From positions 757,001 through 821,000 of the forward strand of contig NC_023035.1 in the NCBI RefSeq assembly GCF_000507245.1: DNA of 64,000 bases. Direction: 5' to 3'. The notes below the pieces were generated by a model that was not told where the DNA came from, did no database searches, and saw only the letters and a program-made list of their open reading frames with translations. Positions 6,921 to 60,314 of the stretch are shown in pieces (within the stretch, counting starts at the first letter, position 1; each line of letters begins with the position of its first letter). This DNA is from Salinispira pacifica (GTDB taxonomy: Bacteria; Spirochaetota; Spirochaetia; DSM-27196; Salinispiraceae). The position numbers and the translations under genes were made by a program.

Positions 6921-8035
6921 GTGGCCTTGCATGTTGAACCGGTGCGCAGCGGTGCACAGAAAAAAGAATTTATTTATCTGCCCCGGCAGCTGTACCGGAA
7001 TTCCCCCTGGGTGCCTCCTCTGTGGATGGAAGAGCAAAACGGTTACGGCAGGGGAAAAAATGCAGTCCTGTCAGATAACGAGTACGAGCTGTTTATTGCC
7101 CGGAGGGCAGGCAAGGCTGTGGGGCGCATCCTGGTCTACATTGACCGGGCCTGGAATGACCATTTTCAGAGCAGTGACGGACTGTTCGGTGCCCTGGATG
7201 CGGAGGATTCCGAGGATACGTTCAATGCCCTGATTCAGGCTGCACGGCTGTGGCTGGAAAAGCGGGGAATGAACCGGATTGTGGGCCGATTCACCCGGTG
7301 GCGGAGTTCTGGGGGGTTCTGATACAGGGCTTCGACCGCTCTCCCATGTTTCTCACGCCCTGGAACCCCGCCTATACCGACGGTCACATCCGGGCCGCCG
7401 GGATGAACAAGGAGATTGATCTCTACGCCTATGAGGCGGATTCGGGCAACGGATACCGGCTGAACCCCCGCTATTACCGCTTTTATGACAGGTTTCTGAA
7501 ACGGAATCCCGAGTACCGCATCAGGCGGTTTGAACCTTCCAGGCTTCTGGAGGAAGCAGAGCACATCTGGCGTCTCACCAACCAGGCGCTGATACACAAC
7601 TGGGGTTTTGTTCCGGTACCCCGGGAGATTTTTCTTGATATGGTTGGCAGAATGAAGCTGATTATCGATCCTGACGCCATCTGGTTTGTTGAACACCGGG
7701 GAAGGGTGGTGGCCTATGCATTCGGTCATCCGGATCTGAATATCATCCTGAAGAAAATCCGCGGCCGCCTGTTTCCCACGGGCTGGTTCCATCTCTGGCG
7801 GAAACGGTTTCGCCTGCGGCACTACCGTCTCTTCGGATTGGGTGTGGATGAAGAGTATCAGGGGCTGGGCCTTGATGCACTCATGTATGTGCATCTGTAC
7901 AAACAGCTCAGTGCCCGGAAGATCCGCCTTGAGGCCAACTGGATTCTGGAAAACAACACGAAAATGAACAATAGCCTGATCAGGCTGGGGATGAAGCGTA
8001 CCAAAGAGTACCGGATGTATTCTTCAGCGGTATAG
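6921..8035 (+). pseudogene. GNAT-family acetyltransferase, interrupted by a frameshift near 7286
   Basis: The two halves lie in different frames but form one protein. The first (GTG at 6921, behind GGAAAGGAG) encodes the N-terminal half up to GMNRIVG. The second continues from about 7288 as PIHPVAEFW and then LIQGFDRSPMFLTPWNP, ending at 8035. Homologues read RIVGP...LIEGFDxPPMxxMPYNP without a break. One extra base in the GGGCC at 7283-7287 would restore the frame and give about 371 residues. The C-terminal half has the acetyl-CoA-binding pattern around LGVDEEYQGLGLDALM. It is either a sequencing undercall or a recent mutation. The acceptor substrate is unknown. Confidence 0.8.
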
Positions 8036-8148
8036 ATCCGGCAGATGGCCTCCCCGTGACAAGGGGAGGTGAAATTCGCTACATTTACACAGAGAATACG
8101 ACTCTCGCACGCCAGTTTGCGGATATTTTGATACCTGAGGAGATTACC

Positions 8149-9054
8149 ATGAGCCTGTACGCCGGGATTGAAGCCGGAGGCACCAAATTTGTTTGTGCCG
8201 TGGCATCGGATTTTGACACGATTTTGAAAGAGGAGCGCTTTCCCACCACAACTCCCGAAGAAACACTTCCCCGGGCCCTGGATTTTTTCCGCAGAGCAGA
8301 AGAGGAATTGAAGGATCAGCACGGAGCTATCACGTCCATGGGGATTGCCGCCTTCGGTCCGGTGAATGTGGATTCTTCTTCCTCCAGGTACGGGTGGATT
8401 ACCAGCACACCGAAACCGGGCTGGAAAAACACAGACATCCGGGGATATTTTGTCCGGGAAATGAACGTTCCCGTGGGTTTCGATACCGATGTAAACGGAG
8501 CAGCTCTTGGGGAAGGCCATGCCGGAGCAGGCAGAGGCCTGGATACCTTCATGTACATCACCATCGGAACCGGTGTGGGCGGGGGTATTATTGTGAACAA
8601 TAAACCGGTACACGGCCTTGTGCACCCGGAGGTTGGCCATATGATCCTCAAACCCCGTGAAGGTGAGACGTTCCAGGGAGTATGTCCCTACCACAGTCAC
8701 TGTGTTGAGGGTATGTGCGCCGGCCCTGCCATTAAGGCCCGGTGGGGAACGCCCGGGGATCAGCTTCCCGACGACCATGAAGCCTGGGATGTGGAAGCAT
8801 CCTATATTGCCCAGGCTCTGATGAGCTATGTCTTGATTATTAGTCCCGAACGTATTATTTTAGGCGGCGGAGTAATGCATCAGCGACAGCTTTTTCCCAA
8901 AATCCGCAAAGAATTGAAAACCCTTTTGAACGGGTATGTTGATCATCCGGCCATCCTTGAAGAACGGGAGGATTACATAGTCCCTCCGGGACTTGAGGAT
9001 CATGCCGGAATAACCGGCGCCTTCATTCTGGCGGCGGGGGCAGCCCACCGGTAA
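8149..9054 (+). CDS. ROK-family fructokinase
   Basis: This is a cytoplasmic sugar kinase of the ROK family, closest in pattern to the ScrK/YdhR/GmuE fructokinases that phosphorylate fructose at O6 with ATP. The phosphate-binding loop GIEAGGTKF is at residues 6-14, the catalytic Asp lies in the DTDVNGAALGE region, and the second phosphate loop is TIGTGVGGGI. A zinc site typical of these fructokinases is visible: H164 in EVGHM, then C179, H182/H184 and C185 in CPYHSHC. The start at 8149 has GAGGAG upstream, and an in-frame ATG at 8056 is rejected. A CCTCCCC/GGGGAGG hairpin at 8049-8069 lies in the leader. Its neighbours do not indicate a specific pathway. Confidence 0.88.
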   Translation: MSLYAGIEAGGTKFVCAVASDFDTILKEERFPTTTPEETLPRALDFFRRAEEELKDQHGAITSMGIAAFGPVNVDSSSSRYGWITSTPKPGWKNTDIRGYFVREMNVPVGFDTDVNGAALGEGHAGAGRGLDTFMYITIGTGVGGGIIVNNKPVHGLVHPEVGHMILKPREGETFQGVCPYHSHCVEGMCAGPAIKARWGTPGDQLPDDHEAWDVEASYIAQALMSYVLIISPERIILGGGVMHQRQLFPKIRKELKTLLNGYVDHPAILEEREDYIVPPGLEDHAGITGAFILAAGAAHR

Positions 9055-31374: not shown

Positions 31375-32907
31375 ATGCCCGACACTACCAACGAAAAAGA
31401 TACCCGTAAAACCGACGGCGATTACACCCCGCCGGGAGGATCAAGCATGGATCACCGCATCAGTCTCGGCGGAGAAACCATGGACTACAGTGCTTCTGCG
31501 GACTGGATGGTTCTCCGGAAAAAAGATAAGCCTGCGGCGGAGATGTTCCATATCAGCTATGTGAAAAAGGACGGAGGAGACCGGCCGATTACCTTTGTTT
31601 TCAACGGAGGACCCGGCGCTTCATCGGTTTTTCTTCATCTGGGAGCCATGGGGCCCCGGCGGGCCCGTTTTAATGCCGACGGCACCGCTCCTCCTCCTCC
31701 CCACAGCCTCATGGACAATGCGGACAGCTGGCTCGAGTTTACCGATCTGGTGTTTATCGATCCCATCGGTACCGGCCTGAGCCGTCCGGTGGATGAGAAA
31801 GAAGGGAAAACCGGAAACGGCGGCAACGGGAAAACTGACGATTCCCAAAGCGGCGCTTCCGGTGACGATTCCAGCGAGTACTGGCAGTTGAAACGGGATT
31901 TGGAATCTCTGGGTGAATTTATCAGCAAGTACCTCTCCCGTCACCGCCGCTGGGAAAGCCCGGTATATATTGCCGGTGAAAGTTACGGCGGATTCCGCAC
32001 CGCCAAGCTGACCAGAATGCTTCAGCAGGATTTCGGGGTGGGGCTTTCCGGAGCCATCATCATTTCACCGGCAATGGAGTTCACCCTCCTTGACGGCTCG
32101 GACTACGATGTACTCATGTGGCTGGATACTTTTCCCACCATGGCGGCGGCGGCCCATGTACACGGAAAGAGCAGGAAAAAACGGGAAGGCGAGGATCTGA
32201 GATCCTACATGCAGCGCGCTGCGGATTTTGCCCTGAAGGATCTGCTTCCGGTTCTTGCGGCAGGAGATATGTACGGAGAGCAGAAAAAAAAACGGGTGCT
32301 TCGCCTGGCTTCGGATTACCTGGGACTCTCCCGGGATACCGTAGTGAAAAAGAACGGCAGAGTGGATATCCGGTATTTTGTGAAAAACCTTCTGCGGGAT
32401 CAGGGGCTCCATCTGGGACTCTACGATGCATCCCTGAAGGTTCGGGACCCGTATCCGGACCGGGATGAATACACCGGACCTGATCCCACACTTCATAACG
32501 TCGACCGGGTTTTTGCCGCAGGTATCAACACCCAGCTGCGTAAGCACATCGGTCTGGAAACCGAGCGGGATTACACAATTCTCAGCATGGATGTGAACAG
32601 CAAGTGGAAAATCGACACCAGAAAACACGCTCTGCAGAGCCAGGTGGGCGCCACCGATGATCTTCGCTACGGTATGAGCCTGAATCCCGATATGAAGGTG
32701 TTTCTCTGTCACGGGATATTTGACCTGGTGACTCCCTATTTTGCAGCCGAACGGATATCAAACCTGATGAAACTGGGAAAGGATCAGAAACGTCAGCTTC
32801 AGGTAAAGCATTATGACGGGGGACACATGTTTTACACCTGGGAATCCAGCAGACATCAGTTCTATCTGGATATGAAGGATTTGTATTCCCGAAATTCGGA
32901 GGAATAA
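31375..32907 (+). CDS. S10-family serine carboxypeptidase-like protein
   Basis: This 510-residue alpha/beta hydrolase matches peptidase family S10. The NGGPGASSVFLHLG oxyanion loop is at 77-90, the nucleophile S203 is in AGESYGG, D450 is in CHGIFDLVTPY, and H484 is in DGGHMFYTWES. S10 enzymes release C-terminal residues from peptides and often work in acidic compartments. Unusually there is no recognisable signal peptide, so a cytoplasmic peptidase is implied. A hydrophilic Gly/Asn/Ser insert lies at 141-167. GGAGG precedes the ATG. The stop is immediately followed by the GTG of the damaged ABC ATPase gene, so the two were in one operon. Confidence 0.88.
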   Translation: MPDTTNEKDTRKTDGDYTPPGGSSMDHRISLGGETMDYSASADWMVLRKKDKPAAEMFHISYVKKDGGDRPITFVFNGGPGASSVFLHLGAMGPRRARFNADGTAPPPPHSLMDNADSWLEFTDLVFIDPIGTGLSRPVDEKEGKTGNGGNGKTDDSQSGASGDDSSEYWQLKRDLESLGEFISKYLSRHRRWESPVYIAGESYGGFRTAKLTRMLQQDFGVGLSGAIIISPAMEFTLLDGSDYDVLMWLDTFPTMAAAAHVHGKSRKKREGEDLRSYMQRAADFALKDLLPVLAAGDMYGEQKKKRVLRLASDYLGLSRDTVVKKNGRVDIRYFVKNLLRDQGLHLGLYDASLKVRDPYPDRDEYTGPDPTLHNVDRVFAAGINTQLRKHIGLETERDYTILSMDVNSKWKIDTRKHALQSQVGATDDLRYGMSLNPDMKVFLCHGIFDLVTPYFAAERISNLMKLGKDQKRQLQVKHYDGGHMFYTWESSRHQFYLDMKDLYSRNSEE

Positions 32908-33569
32908 GTGATCCATGTCAGGGATCTGATTTTCCCCCATCCTTAAGAAAGCAGATAGGCGTGGCATTTGAGACTCCCGCCCTTTATGAGAAACTCAGCG
33001 GTGAAGAGAATCTCCGCTTTTTCGCTGCTCTGCAGGATGCCGATGGCGAGTCATTGAAGGTCGCATTTCAGGCAGCTGCTGATCTGGGCTTGGAGGGAGA
33101 TCTTTCCAAGCCGGTTGGGGCGTATTCCAAAGGGATGAAGGTCCGTCTTAACTACTGCCGGGCGCTTGTCCACAATCCCCGGCTGCTTTTTCTTGATGAG
33201 CCGGGGGCGGGATTGGATCCGCTGCTGCAGGTGCGGCTGAGAGAACATATCCTCCGTCAGAAAGAGTCGGGCAGAACAATCATCCTGACTACACACAATA
33301 TGGAGCTTGCGGAGAAGCTCTGTGACCGTCTGGGAATTATATCCTCAGGGAAGCTTAAAGCCCTGGAGAATCCTGATGTATTAAAAGCAGCCTATGGTGA
33401 ACAGCTCCTTGAAATACGGACCTCTTCTGCCATTGAGAAGTTCCCGCTGGATGGGCTGGCGTCCAACGCCCGTTTTCTTGGACTGCTGGAATCGCCGGAT
33501 CTGCGTTCTGTACGCACACTTGACGCCAGCATGGAACAGGTGTTTATAGCGGTGAGTGATGAACAATAG
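32908..33569 (+). pseudogene. ABC exporter ATPase lacking the Walker A region
   Basis: A GTG at 32908, behind GGAGGAATAA, starts a normal ABC ATPase N-terminus (VIHVRDLIFP) but reaches TAA after twelve codons. The rest, in another frame, runs from about 32943 as LRKQIGVAFETPALYEKLSG to 33569. It has the family's signature SKGMKVRLNYCRAL, Walker B LLFLDEPGAGLDP and H-loop LTTHNM. About 70 residues that should carry Walker A (GxxGxGKST) are missing between the two parts. One extra C near 32936 would also make the remnant a single frame. Without a P-loop the protein should not hydrolyse ATP. The pattern resembles ATPases paired with fluoroquinolone-export-type permeases. Confidence 0.85.
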
Positions 33570-34299
33570 CGTAACCCTTTTCAGGCTTGAACTGAAGCAT
33601 CTGTGGAGACAGGGAATTTTTGCTGCTTTTCTCTTTCTTGGACTGGTTTTGGTACCGGTTTTAACTCTCCTTCCGGCCCAATGGCACAGAGCGGGGCTGT
33701 TTTTAATCCTCTACGTGGACGCCGCACTTGCGGGTTTTCTCTTTTCCGGCGGACTCACTCTCCTGGAGAACGGTCAGAATCTGCGCCCGGCCCTGGAAAT
33801 CATTCCCGGTGCCAGGAAAACTATTCTTCTTCTCAGAATTGCCTCGTTTGCGTTGCTCGCAGGGGTGGTTTCGTTGCTGGTATTCACGCTGGCTGCTCTT
33901 ATGCTTCCCGGCAGTATTTCACCTGCCTCCGCACTGTATCTGTCATGTTTCTTGATCATCGGTTCTGTACCCTCCACGGTTCTGGGCATGATTGCCGCTG
34001 AAAATAAAGAAAGTACAAACGGTTTTCTACTGGGCGCTATTCCTGCAATGTTCCTTTTTCTTCCCGCGCTTATCCTTCTATTTCTCAGCCGGGACTGGAC
34101 TGTAGTTTTCTTATCTTTTGTATTGCCCGGCGGCGGAGCGGTGCTGGCTGCCAGGGCAGAGCAGTTCTCCGGTGAATTCATGCAGGATATCGCCGGAATT
34201 CGGGTATTTATCATTTCCGGCGGGGTGGGGCTTGCCAATACCGCCCTCTACTCCTGGCTTTGCATCCGCCGCTATCTCAAGAGGCCTGGAGGGCTGTGA
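33559..34299 (+). CDS. ABC exporter permease, first subunit
   Basis: This 246-residue integral membrane protein has about six hydrophobic segments and no soluble domain. It is typical of the two-permease ABC exporters sometimes annotated as fluoroquinolone exporters. I chose the ATG at 33559, just after a GTG in the same frame. It overlaps the ATPase end by 11 bases. The motif ENGQNLRPALEIIPGARKTIL after the second helix is a likely coupling helix. The pump depends on the upstream ATPase, which is damaged here. Its substrate cannot be inferred. Confidence 0.75.
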   Translation: MNNSVTLFRLELKHLWRQGIFAAFLFLGLVLVPVLTLLPAQWHRAGLFLILYVDAALAGFLFSGGLTLLENGQNLRPALEIIPGARKTILLLRIASFALLAGVVSLLVFTLAALMLPGSISPASALYLSCFLIIGSVPSTVLGMIAAENKESTNGFLLGAIPAMFLFLPALILLFLSRDWTVVFLSFVLPGGGAVLAARAEQFSGEFMQDIAGIRVFIISGGVGLANTALYSWLCIRRYLKRPGGL

Positions 34300-56821: not shown

Positions 56822-58183
56822 TTACACCCGCTCCAGCACGGCCCCTGCGTAGGTGAACCCGCCTCCGAAGGCGGTGAGCCCCAGGGTGCCGGGCAGGCTG
56901 CCGCTGCTTCCTGCAGCTGTGCCGGTTTGGCCCAGTTCATCCGCATTGCTGAGAATTTGCTCAATACAGAGGGGAATGGTTGATGAAGAGGTATTGCCCC
57001 AGTCCCTGATCATGGAAAATACCCGTGAACTGTCCAGTTTCATCCGCTGGCGCACAGCGTTGATAATCCGCTGGTTCGCCTGGTGGGGTACGATCAGCTC
57101 CAGCGCCTTGGCGTTGAATCCCGAAGCCTTGGCTGCCGAGTCCAGGGATGAGATCATGGCCCGCACCGCTTTCTGATAAATTACCGGTCCTTCCATGCTG
57201 ATATACTCATTTTCGGCGTTTCCGCCCCCCTGCTCATGAAGAGGTACGGTGAGTGCCTGTTCAGTATCGGGGCTTGCGTACAATGACGGGCGGTGAATCC
57301 GGTAGAGGGGTTTCAGCCCCTTTTCCCCTGCGGGTCCGCCGTCTGCCGTTGCGCAGATCAGCGTAGCGGTTGCCGCATCCCCGAAGATGGGGGCGGTTGA
57401 GGGATCGCTGCTGTCCAGGCGCCTGGAGAGCAGTTCCGTGGTAATCAGCAGAATGGGTTTCCCGCCTCCGGTACTGAGCAGGGCATCATGGGCCAGCTGG
57501 AGACCGTAGATGTATCCCGAGCAGGCTGCGGAAAAGTCCATGGCGGGAATTTCCGTACTGCCGTCGCTTCCCGGCAGCCTGTCCAGAACACGGCATGCCA
57601 GGGAGGGAGTAATATTGTCAGGTGTTCCGGTTGATAGGTATATGCCCCCCAGATCTCCTGCTTTGAGATTAAATTGGGTCATCAGCCCGGATGCGGCTTC
57701 CACCGCCATACCCACGGCGCTTTGATCATCCGACGCCCAGCGTCGCCGCTGAATTCCTGTTCGCTTTACAATATCTTCGGGACTCCAGCTGGGACAGAGC
57801 TGTGAAATTTCTTCGTTTTCCAGTACCCGCGAACCGGCGGAGTGGGCGACTCCGGCAATCCCCACAATAATCCCGGAAGAAGTTCCGGATTTTTCGTGCT
57901 GTGTTCCGCCCTTTTTTTCCCCCTGTGTTCCTGTTGGGGCCGGCGTCCGGCTGTCCCGGAACTGAAGGGGTTCCAGCCTGATCACCGGGGTTCCCGGTTC
58001 TTCCCGGGTGGGAGGTTTGGGTACCGCCGCATCCTCGGTGAGCAGCCGGATCAGCGGGGTCCCCACTGCAACCTCATCTCCGATTTCCACCAGCAGGTCC
58101 CGCACCGTGCCGGAAATGGGGGCGGCAATCTCTGTGACCGCCTTGTCCGCTTCCACACTGGCGATCAGATCCCCTTCTTTCAC
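56822..58183 (-). CDS. Lipoyl domain (3' part) fused to beta-ketoacyl-ACP synthase III
   Basis: Residues 1-48 are the rest of a lipoyl/biotinyl domain, with the modified lysine K14 in VEADKAV and the usual PISGTV and GTPLIRL strands. The first strands are encoded just upstream in another frame. A Pro/Gly-rich linker (50-103) follows. Residues 104-453 are a KAS III (FabH-like) domain with the Cys-His-Asn triad intact: C221 in DFSAACSGYIYG, H367 in VPHQANQR and N397 in DWGNTSSSTIPL. KAS III condenses a short acyl group with malonyl-ACP to start fatty acids. The lipoyl arm beside it implies an acyl group arriving from the E1 part upstream. One base missing in the GGG (58189-58191, minus strand) separates this frame from the E1 frame. 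The first in-frame codon is therefore probably not a real start. Confidence 0.85.
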   Translation of the reverse strand: MKEGDLIASVEADKAVTEIAAPISGTVRDLLVEIGDEVAVGTPLIRLLTEDAAVPKPPTREEPGTPVIRLEPLQFRDSRTPAPTGTQGEKKGGTQHEKSGTSSGIIVGIAGVAHSAGSRVLENEEISQLCPSWSPEDIVKRTGIQRRRWASDDQSAVGMAVEAASGLMTQFNLKAGDLGGIYLSTGTPDNITPSLACRVLDRLPGSDGSTEIPAMDFSAACSGYIYGLQLAHDALLSTGGGKPILLITTELLSRRLDSSDPSTAPIFGDAATATLICATADGGPAGEKGLKPLYRIHRPSLYASPDTEQALTVPLHEQGGGNAENEYISMEGPVIYQKAVRAMISSLDSAAKASGFNAKALELIVPHQANQRIINAVRQRMKLDSSRVFSMIRDWGNTSSSTIPLCIEQILSNADELGQTGTAAGSSGSLPGTLGLTAFGGGFTYAGAVLERV

Positions 58184-59703
58184 CTCTTCCCTGCCTTCAC
58201 CAGGTATTCGATGACGGTCACCATTTCATCCGAGGGGCTGGAACCGATGGCTTCAACCAGGAATTCACCCTCTCCGGCGCTTACCGGTTTATCCCAGTCC
58301 ATATCACCCTGAAGCATTTCAACCGCCGCTTCAAGAATTTCCCGGTAGGATGGAAGTACCTCCAGCTGATTGCCGAAGTTGCAGGGAACATAGGTGTCTT
58401 CCCGAACCACCCGCCGTGAGCTGAAACCTCCGGATAATTCCTCACTGAGATACGCCAGGATTTCCGCCCCGAAGCCTGACGACCGGTTATCCTCATGGGC
58501 GATGATCACCCGGCGGCTTGCGGCCACAGATTCCCGTACCATATCCTTGTCCCAGGGGGAAAGGGATCTCAGATCGATCAGGTCCACCTCAACTCCCTTC
58601 TCTTCCAGAGCTGCCGCGGTCTTGGCCATGAGAGGGATGGTGTTCCCCCAGCCGATGAGACTGATGTCCGAGCCGGAACGGATGCGCCGGGCCTTGCCCA
58701 CCGGGACAAAATGCTTGGCGATATCCGGGCTGGTTGCCCTGTTTCGGTCGTTCAGACAGTTTTTCGGATAGAAAAAGAGGGTGGGGCGTCCCGACTCGTA
58801 GGCCGCATTCAGCAGGCCGGCGGCGTCTCCGGCGGACGAGGGCATGACCACATCCACTCCGGGGGTGTGAACCGCAAGGGCTTCCAGGCTGGACGCATGA
58901 AAGGGGCCCAGCCCGGGCTTGTAGCCTCCGGAGGTGATCATGAGAATTGCCGGGGCCTCCCAGCCGCCGTCGGTTCTCCAGTACATGCTGCCCATTTCGG
59001 AGAAAATCTGGTTGTAGGCCAGGGGGAGAAAGTCTGCGAACTGAATGAATCCCACCGGCCTGCCTCCCGCAAGGGCCCGGCCGACGCTTACCCCCGCAAT
59101 GGTGGATTCACTCAACGGACTGTTCAGAACCCGCCCGGGGTTGGCTGTGCTCAGCCCCTTGGTAATGCCGAACACATCGCCCTTGGGATCCTCAATATCC
59201 TCCCCGAACAGGCTCAGCCGCCGGTCCTTTTCCAGGCGCAGCCGGAAACTCTCCCTGATGGCTTCGATCATGGTCAGGCTCGGCTGTTCACCCTCCGGCG
59301 CAGGACCTTCATGGCTGCCCCGGTATTCTTCGGTTTTCAGGTAGGCGGGGGCAAGGGGGCGTTTTGCATCGAACACCGAATCGGGCTCCGGTGAGCGGCG
59401 GCTGCGGTCGGCGGCCTGATGTACTTCCTCCCGCACCTCCTCTTCAAGAGAGGTGATTTCATCCTCGCTCATTCCCGATTCCAGAAGAAGGTTCCGGCAA
59501 TGAACCAGGGGGTCCCTGGTGGAGGCCGAGCGGCCGATATCCTCGGCGCTGCGGTATACGCTCTGGTCGTCTGCATTGGTATGATTGGAAATCCGGTCAA
59601 CCTGGAAAATGACGATTGCCGGCTTCCGGGTTTCCCGCATTTCGTTAACCACCCGGGAAAGCCCGGCATGGGACTCGGTTATATTGCAGCCGTCAATCCT
59701 CAC
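58180..59703 (-). CDS. E1-alpha C-terminus, complete E1-beta and start of lipoyl domain
   Basis: This open frame continues the E1-alpha of the next entry from VRIDGCNITESHAGLSRVV through the usual C-terminal helices. A linker (about residues 100-135) follows. A complete transketolase-like E1-beta domain comes next (MIEAIRESFRLRLEKDRRL, LFGEDIEDPKG, RVLNSPLSESTIAGVSVG, ending CNFGNQLEVLPSYREILEA). At its end FLVEAIGSSPSDEMVTVIEYLVKAG is the first part of a lipoyl domain that continues in the KAS III frame. The order alpha-beta in one chain is known in some 2-oxoacid dehydrogenases, but the lipoyl-KAS III continuation is unusual. The apparent ATG at 59703 arises only because of a lost base upstream and is not a credible start. 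Confidence 0.85.
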   Translation of the reverse strand: MRIDGCNITESHAGLSRVVNEMRETRKPAIVIFQVDRISNHTNADDQSVYRSAEDIGRSASTRDPLVHCRNLLLESGMSEDEITSLEEEVREEVHQAADRSRRSPEPDSVFDAKRPLAPAYLKTEEYRGSHEGPAPEGEQPSLTMIEAIRESFRLRLEKDRRLSLFGEDIEDPKGDVFGITKGLSTANPGRVLNSPLSESTIAGVSVGRALAGGRPVGFIQFADFLPLAYNQIFSEMGSMYWRTDGGWEAPAILMITSGGYKPGLGPFHASSLEALAVHTPGVDVVMPSSAGDAAGLLNAAYESGRPTLFFYPKNCLNDRNRATSPDIAKHFVPVGKARRIRSGSDISLIGWGNTIPLMAKTAAALEEKGVEVDLIDLRSLSPWDKDMVRESVAASRRVIIAHEDNRSSGFGAEILAYLSEELSGGFSSRRVVREDTYVPCNFGNQLEVLPSYREILEAAVEMLQGDMDWDKPVSAGEGEFLVEAIGSSPSDEMVTVIEYLVKAGKR

Positions 59704-60314
59704 AATGGGGATGCCGTAAAAGCTTTCAGCTTCGCCGTCGGGGTAGAGAAAAAGGTTTGCCCCTTGGTCTGGGTGGATATTGCGTACACATTATCCTCAA
59801 TAAAATAGAGGACCGGAAGCCGTTCCCTCACAGAATGAGCAATGGATTCCAGAACCTCACCCTCCTGGGTCATCCCGTCCCCCAGAGCACAGAGAACCAC
59901 CGGGCTGCCCTCCTGATCCTTCACCTCGGCGGCAATACCCGCCGCCGGAAGGGCATTGTTTCCAACCGGACCGGCCAGGCTGAGAACCTTATGCCGGGGA
60001 TCGCTGATGTGAGCGGACATCTGCCTCCCCCGTGAATGGGAGGCATCTTTACAGAAGAGGCTGTGAAAAAACATCTCGCTGCTCACCCCCCGGGCCAGCA
60101 TCAAAGCCTTGTCCCGATAATGGCAATGGAGCCAGTCCTGCTCCCCGAGAATATCTTCCAGTACTACTGAACCTTCGTGTCCGGCTCCGGAAACATGGAA
60201 GAAGGCTTCCCCCCGCTTGGTAAACTGATCCTCCAGGCGGTCCACCTCCCGGGCACTGAGCATATATCGGTAAAATCGGCGCAACTGGTTTTGAGTAAGG
60301 TCTTTTCTCGTCAT
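59700..60314 (-). CDS. 2-oxoacid dehydrogenase E1-alpha, N-terminal two thirds
   Basis: The true start of the fused gene is the ATG at 60314, with AGGAG eight bases upstream. The 204 residues cover the thiamine-diphosphate part of E1-alpha: AGHEGSVVLEDIL, YRDKALMLARG, GRQMSAHISDP, and the ThDP motif GDGMTQEG (from 145) through to N175. The frame leaves the protein at STPTAKLK. The normal continuation DGEAESFYGIPIVRIDG is one base over, so one C is missing from the CCCC encoded at 59740-59743 (GGGG on the plus strand). Joined with the two downstream frames it makes a 1164-residue protein that decarboxylates a 2-oxoacid. The keto acid (pyruvate or branched-chain) cannot be settled from sequence. 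Confidence 0.87.
   Translation of the reverse strand: MTRKDLTQNQLRRFYRYMLSAREVDRLEDQFTKRGEAFFHVSGAGHEGSVVLEDILGEQDWLHCHYRDKALMLARGVSSEMFFHSLFCKDASHSRGRQMSAHISDPRHKVLSLAGPVGNNALPAAGIAAEVKDQEGSPVVLCALGDGMTQEGEVLESIAHSVRERLPVLYFIEDNVYAISTQTKGQTFFSTPTAKLKAFTASPL

Follow-up and report, generated by a model that had tools for sequence, protein, structure and literature searches.

Two one-base losses divide the gene of a very probably single-chain E1-lipoyl-KAS III fusion in Salinispira pacifica

The window analysed here is a stretch of 64,000 nucleotides from the genome of Salinispira pacifica strain L21-RPul-D2 (C1:757001-821000 of 3,782,798 bases, CP006939.1). Near its end, the minus strand carries three consecutive open frames that together hold the E1-alpha and E1-beta parts of a 2-oxo acid dehydrogenase, a lipoyl domain and a beta-ketoacyl-ACP synthase III (KAS III) domain (Table 1). 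The native chain has about 1,140 residues; at each of two C/G runs its gene is a net one base short, and this breaks it up into the three frames. From one sequence, the exact base can be fixed at neither run. At the downstream break, frame 2 ends with SSPSDEMVTVIEYLVKAGKR, its last residues being DEMVTVIEYLVKAGKR, and runs into a stop at 58180-58182 that overlaps the start codon of frame 3 (GTGA, 58180-58183); from this GTG, frame 3 reads KEGDLIASVEADKAV. The Pfam Biotin_lipoyl match on frame 3 begins only at profile position 28 of 73, which leaves the first 27 profile positions to the other frame. An AlphaFold2 model (mean pLDDT 88.3) of the unbroken relative L064 (Candidatus Marispirochaeta associata, L064:4992-8342) places the same break at residues 707/708, between the lipoyl strands 694-700 and 713-718, and the lipoyl lysine is residue 721, 14 residues past the break position. 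One domain is thus divided over two frames, as the original prediction had proposed for the junction between the E1 and KAS III frames, with the right coordinates.

That prediction spoke of a single break, and in this it fell short, since it missed a second one in the E1-alpha part (about 59740). There the homology of the first frame gives out and the conserved continuation is found in frame 2, whose open part upstream of its GTG reads YPDGEAESFYGIPIVRIDG and matches conserved sequence of the relatives. Inspection of the start context revealed no ribosome-binding site before this GTG at 59703.

Table 1. Position of the pieces, domains and breaks of the fusion gene, in window coordinates, and of its second copy, in genome coordinates
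Feature	Position	Strand	Remarks
Frame 1: first ~190 residues of E1-alpha	59700-60314	minus	E1_dh profile positions 1-181 of 300; ATG with AGGAG upstream
Frame 2: remaining E1-alpha, E1-beta (Transket_pyr, Transketolase_C) and first lipoyl strands	58180-59703	minus	Open upstream to 59790
Frame 3: remaining lipoyl part, then KAS III	56822-58183 (ORF)	minus	Starts with GTG
Lipoyl domain, approximate limits	58043-58264	minus	Break 2 falls inside it; VEADKAV holds the lipoyl-type lysine
Low-complexity linker, lipoyl domain to KAS III	57866-58042	minus	From the sequence; matching linker in the L064 model has low pLDDT
KAS III (FabH-like) domain with Cys-His-Asn	56831-57865	minus	In frame 3
Break 1, E1-alpha part	59740-59743	minus	Net one base short, C run on gene strand; relatives continuous here
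Break 2, lipoyl domain	58189-58191	minus	Net loss of one base, most plausibly in the G run of the gene strand
Truncated second copy	C1:1146697-1148889, within C1:1146670-1148892 (L027:6671-8893)		Without the E1-alpha part

The relatives carry the same parts as one unbroken chain. Twenty stretches were fetched, 19 of them from other genomes, and in 19/19 of the latter E1-alpha, E1-beta, lipoyl and KAS III parts lie in a single frame of 1116-1569 aa. An alignment scan of GTDB contigs gave 424 loci, of which the best 80 were kept, ranked by match score and hence favouring whole genes; in 80/80 of these best loci all parts occupy one open frame. Owing to this ranking, and to contigs common to both sets, the two counts are not independent. 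When 296 genomes were drawn evenly from the phylum, a threshold of 1e-60 yielded 10 matches, eight of them in open frames of at least 1078 aa, the other two being Salinispira pacifica itself (536 aa) and a distant match of 35% identity, whose 687-aa frame contains a TAG. The short frames in five relatives (G038, G025, G034, G013 and G008) stop because the contig ends and are not broken, and a scan of genome contigs with a single protein found no relative. Judged by record title, the best 80 loci belong to Spirochaetota, Planctomycetota, Verrucomicrobiota, Lentisphaerae/Kiritimatiellae, Sumerlaeota and a small number of other groups, where mis-binning may be involved in some cases. One locus (L103) places the fusion on a small contig of Marinobacter halodurans with a Mutator-type transposase nearby, that is, transfer or contamination.

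In the two intact chains scanned with Pfam (L064 and L114), the domain order is E1_dh, Transket_pyr, Transketolase_C, Biotin_lipoyl, ACP_syn_III and ACP_syn_III_C, the three E1 domains being present in the window pieces as well; neither an E2 acyltransferase core nor an E1/E3-binding domain was matched in either chain. The Biotin_lipoyl region adopts, by the Pfam match and the L064 model, the fold with the lysine in its hairpin, and its lipoylation is putative. This lysine is kept in 80/80 of the best 80 of the 424 loci, as are the KAS cysteine (80/80), the histidine (80/80) and the asparagine (79/80, with one gap). Many of the planctomycete chains (L083-L122 records) read EATKS at the lipoyl motif, as compared with EADKA.

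Salinispira pacifica has a second, truncated copy of the gene, which adjoins a broken transposase (recognised by reading of the frames). It contains three one-base losses and a TGA nonsense codon, yet it is continuous through the lipoyl junction. Its one-base losses are not at G/C runs, and one of them is at an A run. The gene family is truly decaying in this genome, as the second copy is IS-flanked and carries a nonsense codon. The pairwise comparison of the two copies over 724 codons gives a dN/dS of 0.31/1.55, or about 0.20, with dS near saturation, so the breaks in the window are either recent or not real. Taken with the relatives, in which the enzyme is unbroken, and with the continuity of the second copy at the lipoyl junction, this agrees with the further claims of the original prediction, namely that the native product is one chain and that the break goes back to an error or to a mutation of recent date. 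There is accordingly strong confidence that the native gene encodes a single E1-alpha/E1-beta/lipoyl/KAS III chain and that the break is non-functional.

As to the origin of the two breaks, residual consensus errors of the long-read assembly would be the most likely source, slightly favoured over recent slippage mutation because the same class of break is found in three other conserved genes. These were recovered in a census in which seven family searches of the strain's own genome gave 326 match rows and seven odd places were inspected closely. Three of these places show an unambiguous single break, in each case with one base missing from a G/C run: an ABC-F gene near C1:2959785 (L131), a peptide permease gene near C1:743090 (L134) and a histidine kinase gene near C1:3356140 (L138). 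The remaining ones comprise a weak, complex kinase match (C1:3595922-3596196) outside the single-break pattern, a regulator at C1:3591255 cut beside an IS-like end, C1:297247, which is intact, and C1:2343767-2344123, which is ambiguous. Clear breaks thus occur about once per 45 kb, on a rough estimate of 140 kb covered. Together with the two in the window, 5/5 breaks lie at G/C runs; G/C runs of four or more bases make up 3.6% of the bases of the window, and random placement would produce this outcome with a probability of about 6e-8, a value computed after the fact. Elsewhere in the genome, a partial match row at C1:1617176 carries two TGA codons, and within the window other long frames overlap on the same strand at 7178-9051 and 32817-34296, which may be gene overlaps or further breaks.

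A preference for single-base runs is common to slippage mutation and long-read consensus error. Runs of this kind, which slippage is well established to favour, are therefore also what would be expected if both breaks had truly arisen by slippage not long ago, leaving the strain with a young pseudogene, a reading that retains a substantial though lesser probability. It is favoured by the second copy, a true pseudogene beside an IS element, with its three one-base losses and nonsense codon. It also gains from the sequencing itself, since the available part of the genome report describes a PacBio assembly at 365x (HGAP) with Illumina and 454 reads aligned to it for a visual check of coverage and SNPs, and three platforms make an error less likely (PMC4511686). 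Against it stand the purifying selection that acted until recently, the occurrence of the same class of break in other conserved genes and the branched fatty acids made by the strain, although these may have other sources. Homopolymer errors that remain in PacBio consensus sequences have been reported, as far as the accessible text of the sources goes (PMC5797582, PMC4853030), and in the latter the weak point concerns runs of nine G (PMC4853030). The runs at the present breaks are short in comparison, with 3-6 bases as read.

Readings in which the sequence works as it stands fare far worse. Programmed ribosomal frameshifting, or translational coupling at the GTGA, would yield a product from the sequence as is, and the overlap of stop and GTG at the downstream break speaks for it; two such events would be required, however, the relatives have no shift and are unbroken at both sites, coupling would leave the lipoyl domain split, and inspection of the sequence showed neither break to have a slippery heptamer (X XXY YYZ), so that frameshifting was rejected and the reading as a whole is highly improbable. 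A split enzyme of three separately working subunits, for which the intact state of the checked catalytic residues in the pieces could be cited, was likewise rejected and is the least probable of all, as the breaks fall inside the E1-alpha and lipoyl folds, the second piece lacks a ribosome-binding site, and such a split was seen in none of the relatives examined.

Regarding the function of the intact enzyme, its parts resemble well-known systems. Among solved structures, the E1 part is closest to the 2-oxo acid dehydrogenase of Thermus, with the human branched-chain E1 coming second for E1-alpha. With the alpha2beta2 branched-chain E1 of Thermus thermophilus (1um9), the fusion has E1_dh, Transket_pyr and Transketolase_C in common, but it joins the alpha and beta chains, which are separate in the alpha2beta2 enzymes, and has the lipoyl domain and KAS III behind them, with no E2 core in the chain. 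That the closest solved E1 is of the branched-chain type gives a hint that the substrate may be a branched-chain 2-oxo acid. The KAS III part shares with FabH, the beta-ketoacyl-ACP synthase III, its sequence family and the Cys-His-Asn triad. It differs from FabH in being joined to E1 and lipoyl parts and in scoring below the cut-offs of NCBIfam fabH (218.3 of 292.1 bits for the window piece) and PRK09352 (238.3 of 249 bits). A further difference is found at the positions of Trp32 and Arg151 (E. coli numbering), which we take to be the clamp for the CoA adenine in E. coli FabH. In the fused KAS III domains (L047-L126), the first position is D in 62, E in 9, A in 5 and another residue in 4, with Trp in 0/80, and the second is P in 30, F in 29 and another residue in 21, with Arg in 0/80. 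Both free-standing FabHs of the Salinispira pacifica genome keep Trp and Arg, as do 2ebd and 4ryb in alignments with PDB entries; the Burkholderia enzyme 3gwa, a free-standing KAS III, has Lys at both positions, so the loss is not unique to the fusion. The clamp residues were not found in the available portion of PMC9979976.

From these features, a working model of the intact enzyme can be proposed. E1 would decarboxylate a 2-oxo acid, probably a branched-chain one, and load the acyl group onto the lipoyl arm within the same polypeptide. From there, KAS III would take it over directly and condense it with a malonyl unit, presumably on ACP, and an E3 acting in trans would probably re-oxidise the arm. 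For the direct step from lipoyl to KAS, the chances are about even. The wider reading, of a widespread and undescribed single-chain enzyme that primes fatty-acid or related chains from 2-oxo acids, through thiamine diphosphate, its own lipoyl arm and the ketosynthase, without E2 or coenzyme A, is put forward tentatively, at a little less than an even chance; within it, the clamp would have been lost because CoA is no longer bound. The proposed chemistry, from 2-oxo acid to branched primer to beta-ketoacyl-ACP, is the one carried out by the Bkd complex and FabH in Bacillus and Staphylococcus, but in the Bkd route E2 releases acyl-CoA, whereas the fusion lacks an E2 domain and probably dispenses with CoA. 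A merger of 2-oxoacid dehydrogenase steps is also seen in the actinobacterial OdhA, which, in the part of the source available, combines E1 and an acyltransferase in one chain; the second activity of the fusion is a ketosynthase instead (PMC10415282).

A competing explanation is that the fused KAS III uses acyl-CoA like an ordinary FabH, or that it works in a pathway that has nothing to do with branched fatty acids, with the fusion doing no more than bringing the enzymes together. The triad shared with FabH agrees with the former, but the loss of the FabH Trp and Arg positions throughout the 80 loci and the lack of an E2 acyltransferase domain in both of the scanned chains count against it, and the explanation as a whole keeps a fair though lesser probability. 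Another pathway is hinted at by a divergent aconitase, which neighbours the fusion in 21/80 of the best loci; a NeuB-like gene does so in 17/80 and a short-chain dehydrogenase in 8/80 (clusters named from one member each by Pfam); across the 80 loci, no neighbour is decisive as a clue to the substrate. The divergent aconitase lies upstream of the fusion in L048-L060 and others, the twelve listed being spirochaetes. To our knowledge, planctomycetes are not known as makers of branched fatty acids; both this and the EATKS motif of their chains weigh against the model proposed above. Within its accessible text, the published genome report of Salinispira pacifica lists a pyruvate dehydrogenase complex, as would suit an E3 in trans, and states that the strain makes 11.7% iso-C15:0 plus anteiso-C15:0 (PMC4511686), a content that is compatible with a branched primer. 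The branched fatty acids or their primer could instead come from 2-oxoacid:ferredoxin enzymes, for which the genome has four POR_N matches, or from the medium.

Returning to the CoA-free single-chain enzyme, a search by title and abstract start, with most subscription journals outside its coverage, found no published description of the fusion, and its route from 2-oxo acids into a ketosynthase may be an undescribed one. The frame break itself is ordinary, but serves as a warning about the reference genome, where conserved genes are split here and there by the loss of one base in a G/C run. If the proposed working of the intact chain is true, the fusion would provide ketoacyl synthesis with an entry that needs neither CoA nor E2, in Spirochaetota, Planctomycetota, Verrucomicrobiota and other groups.
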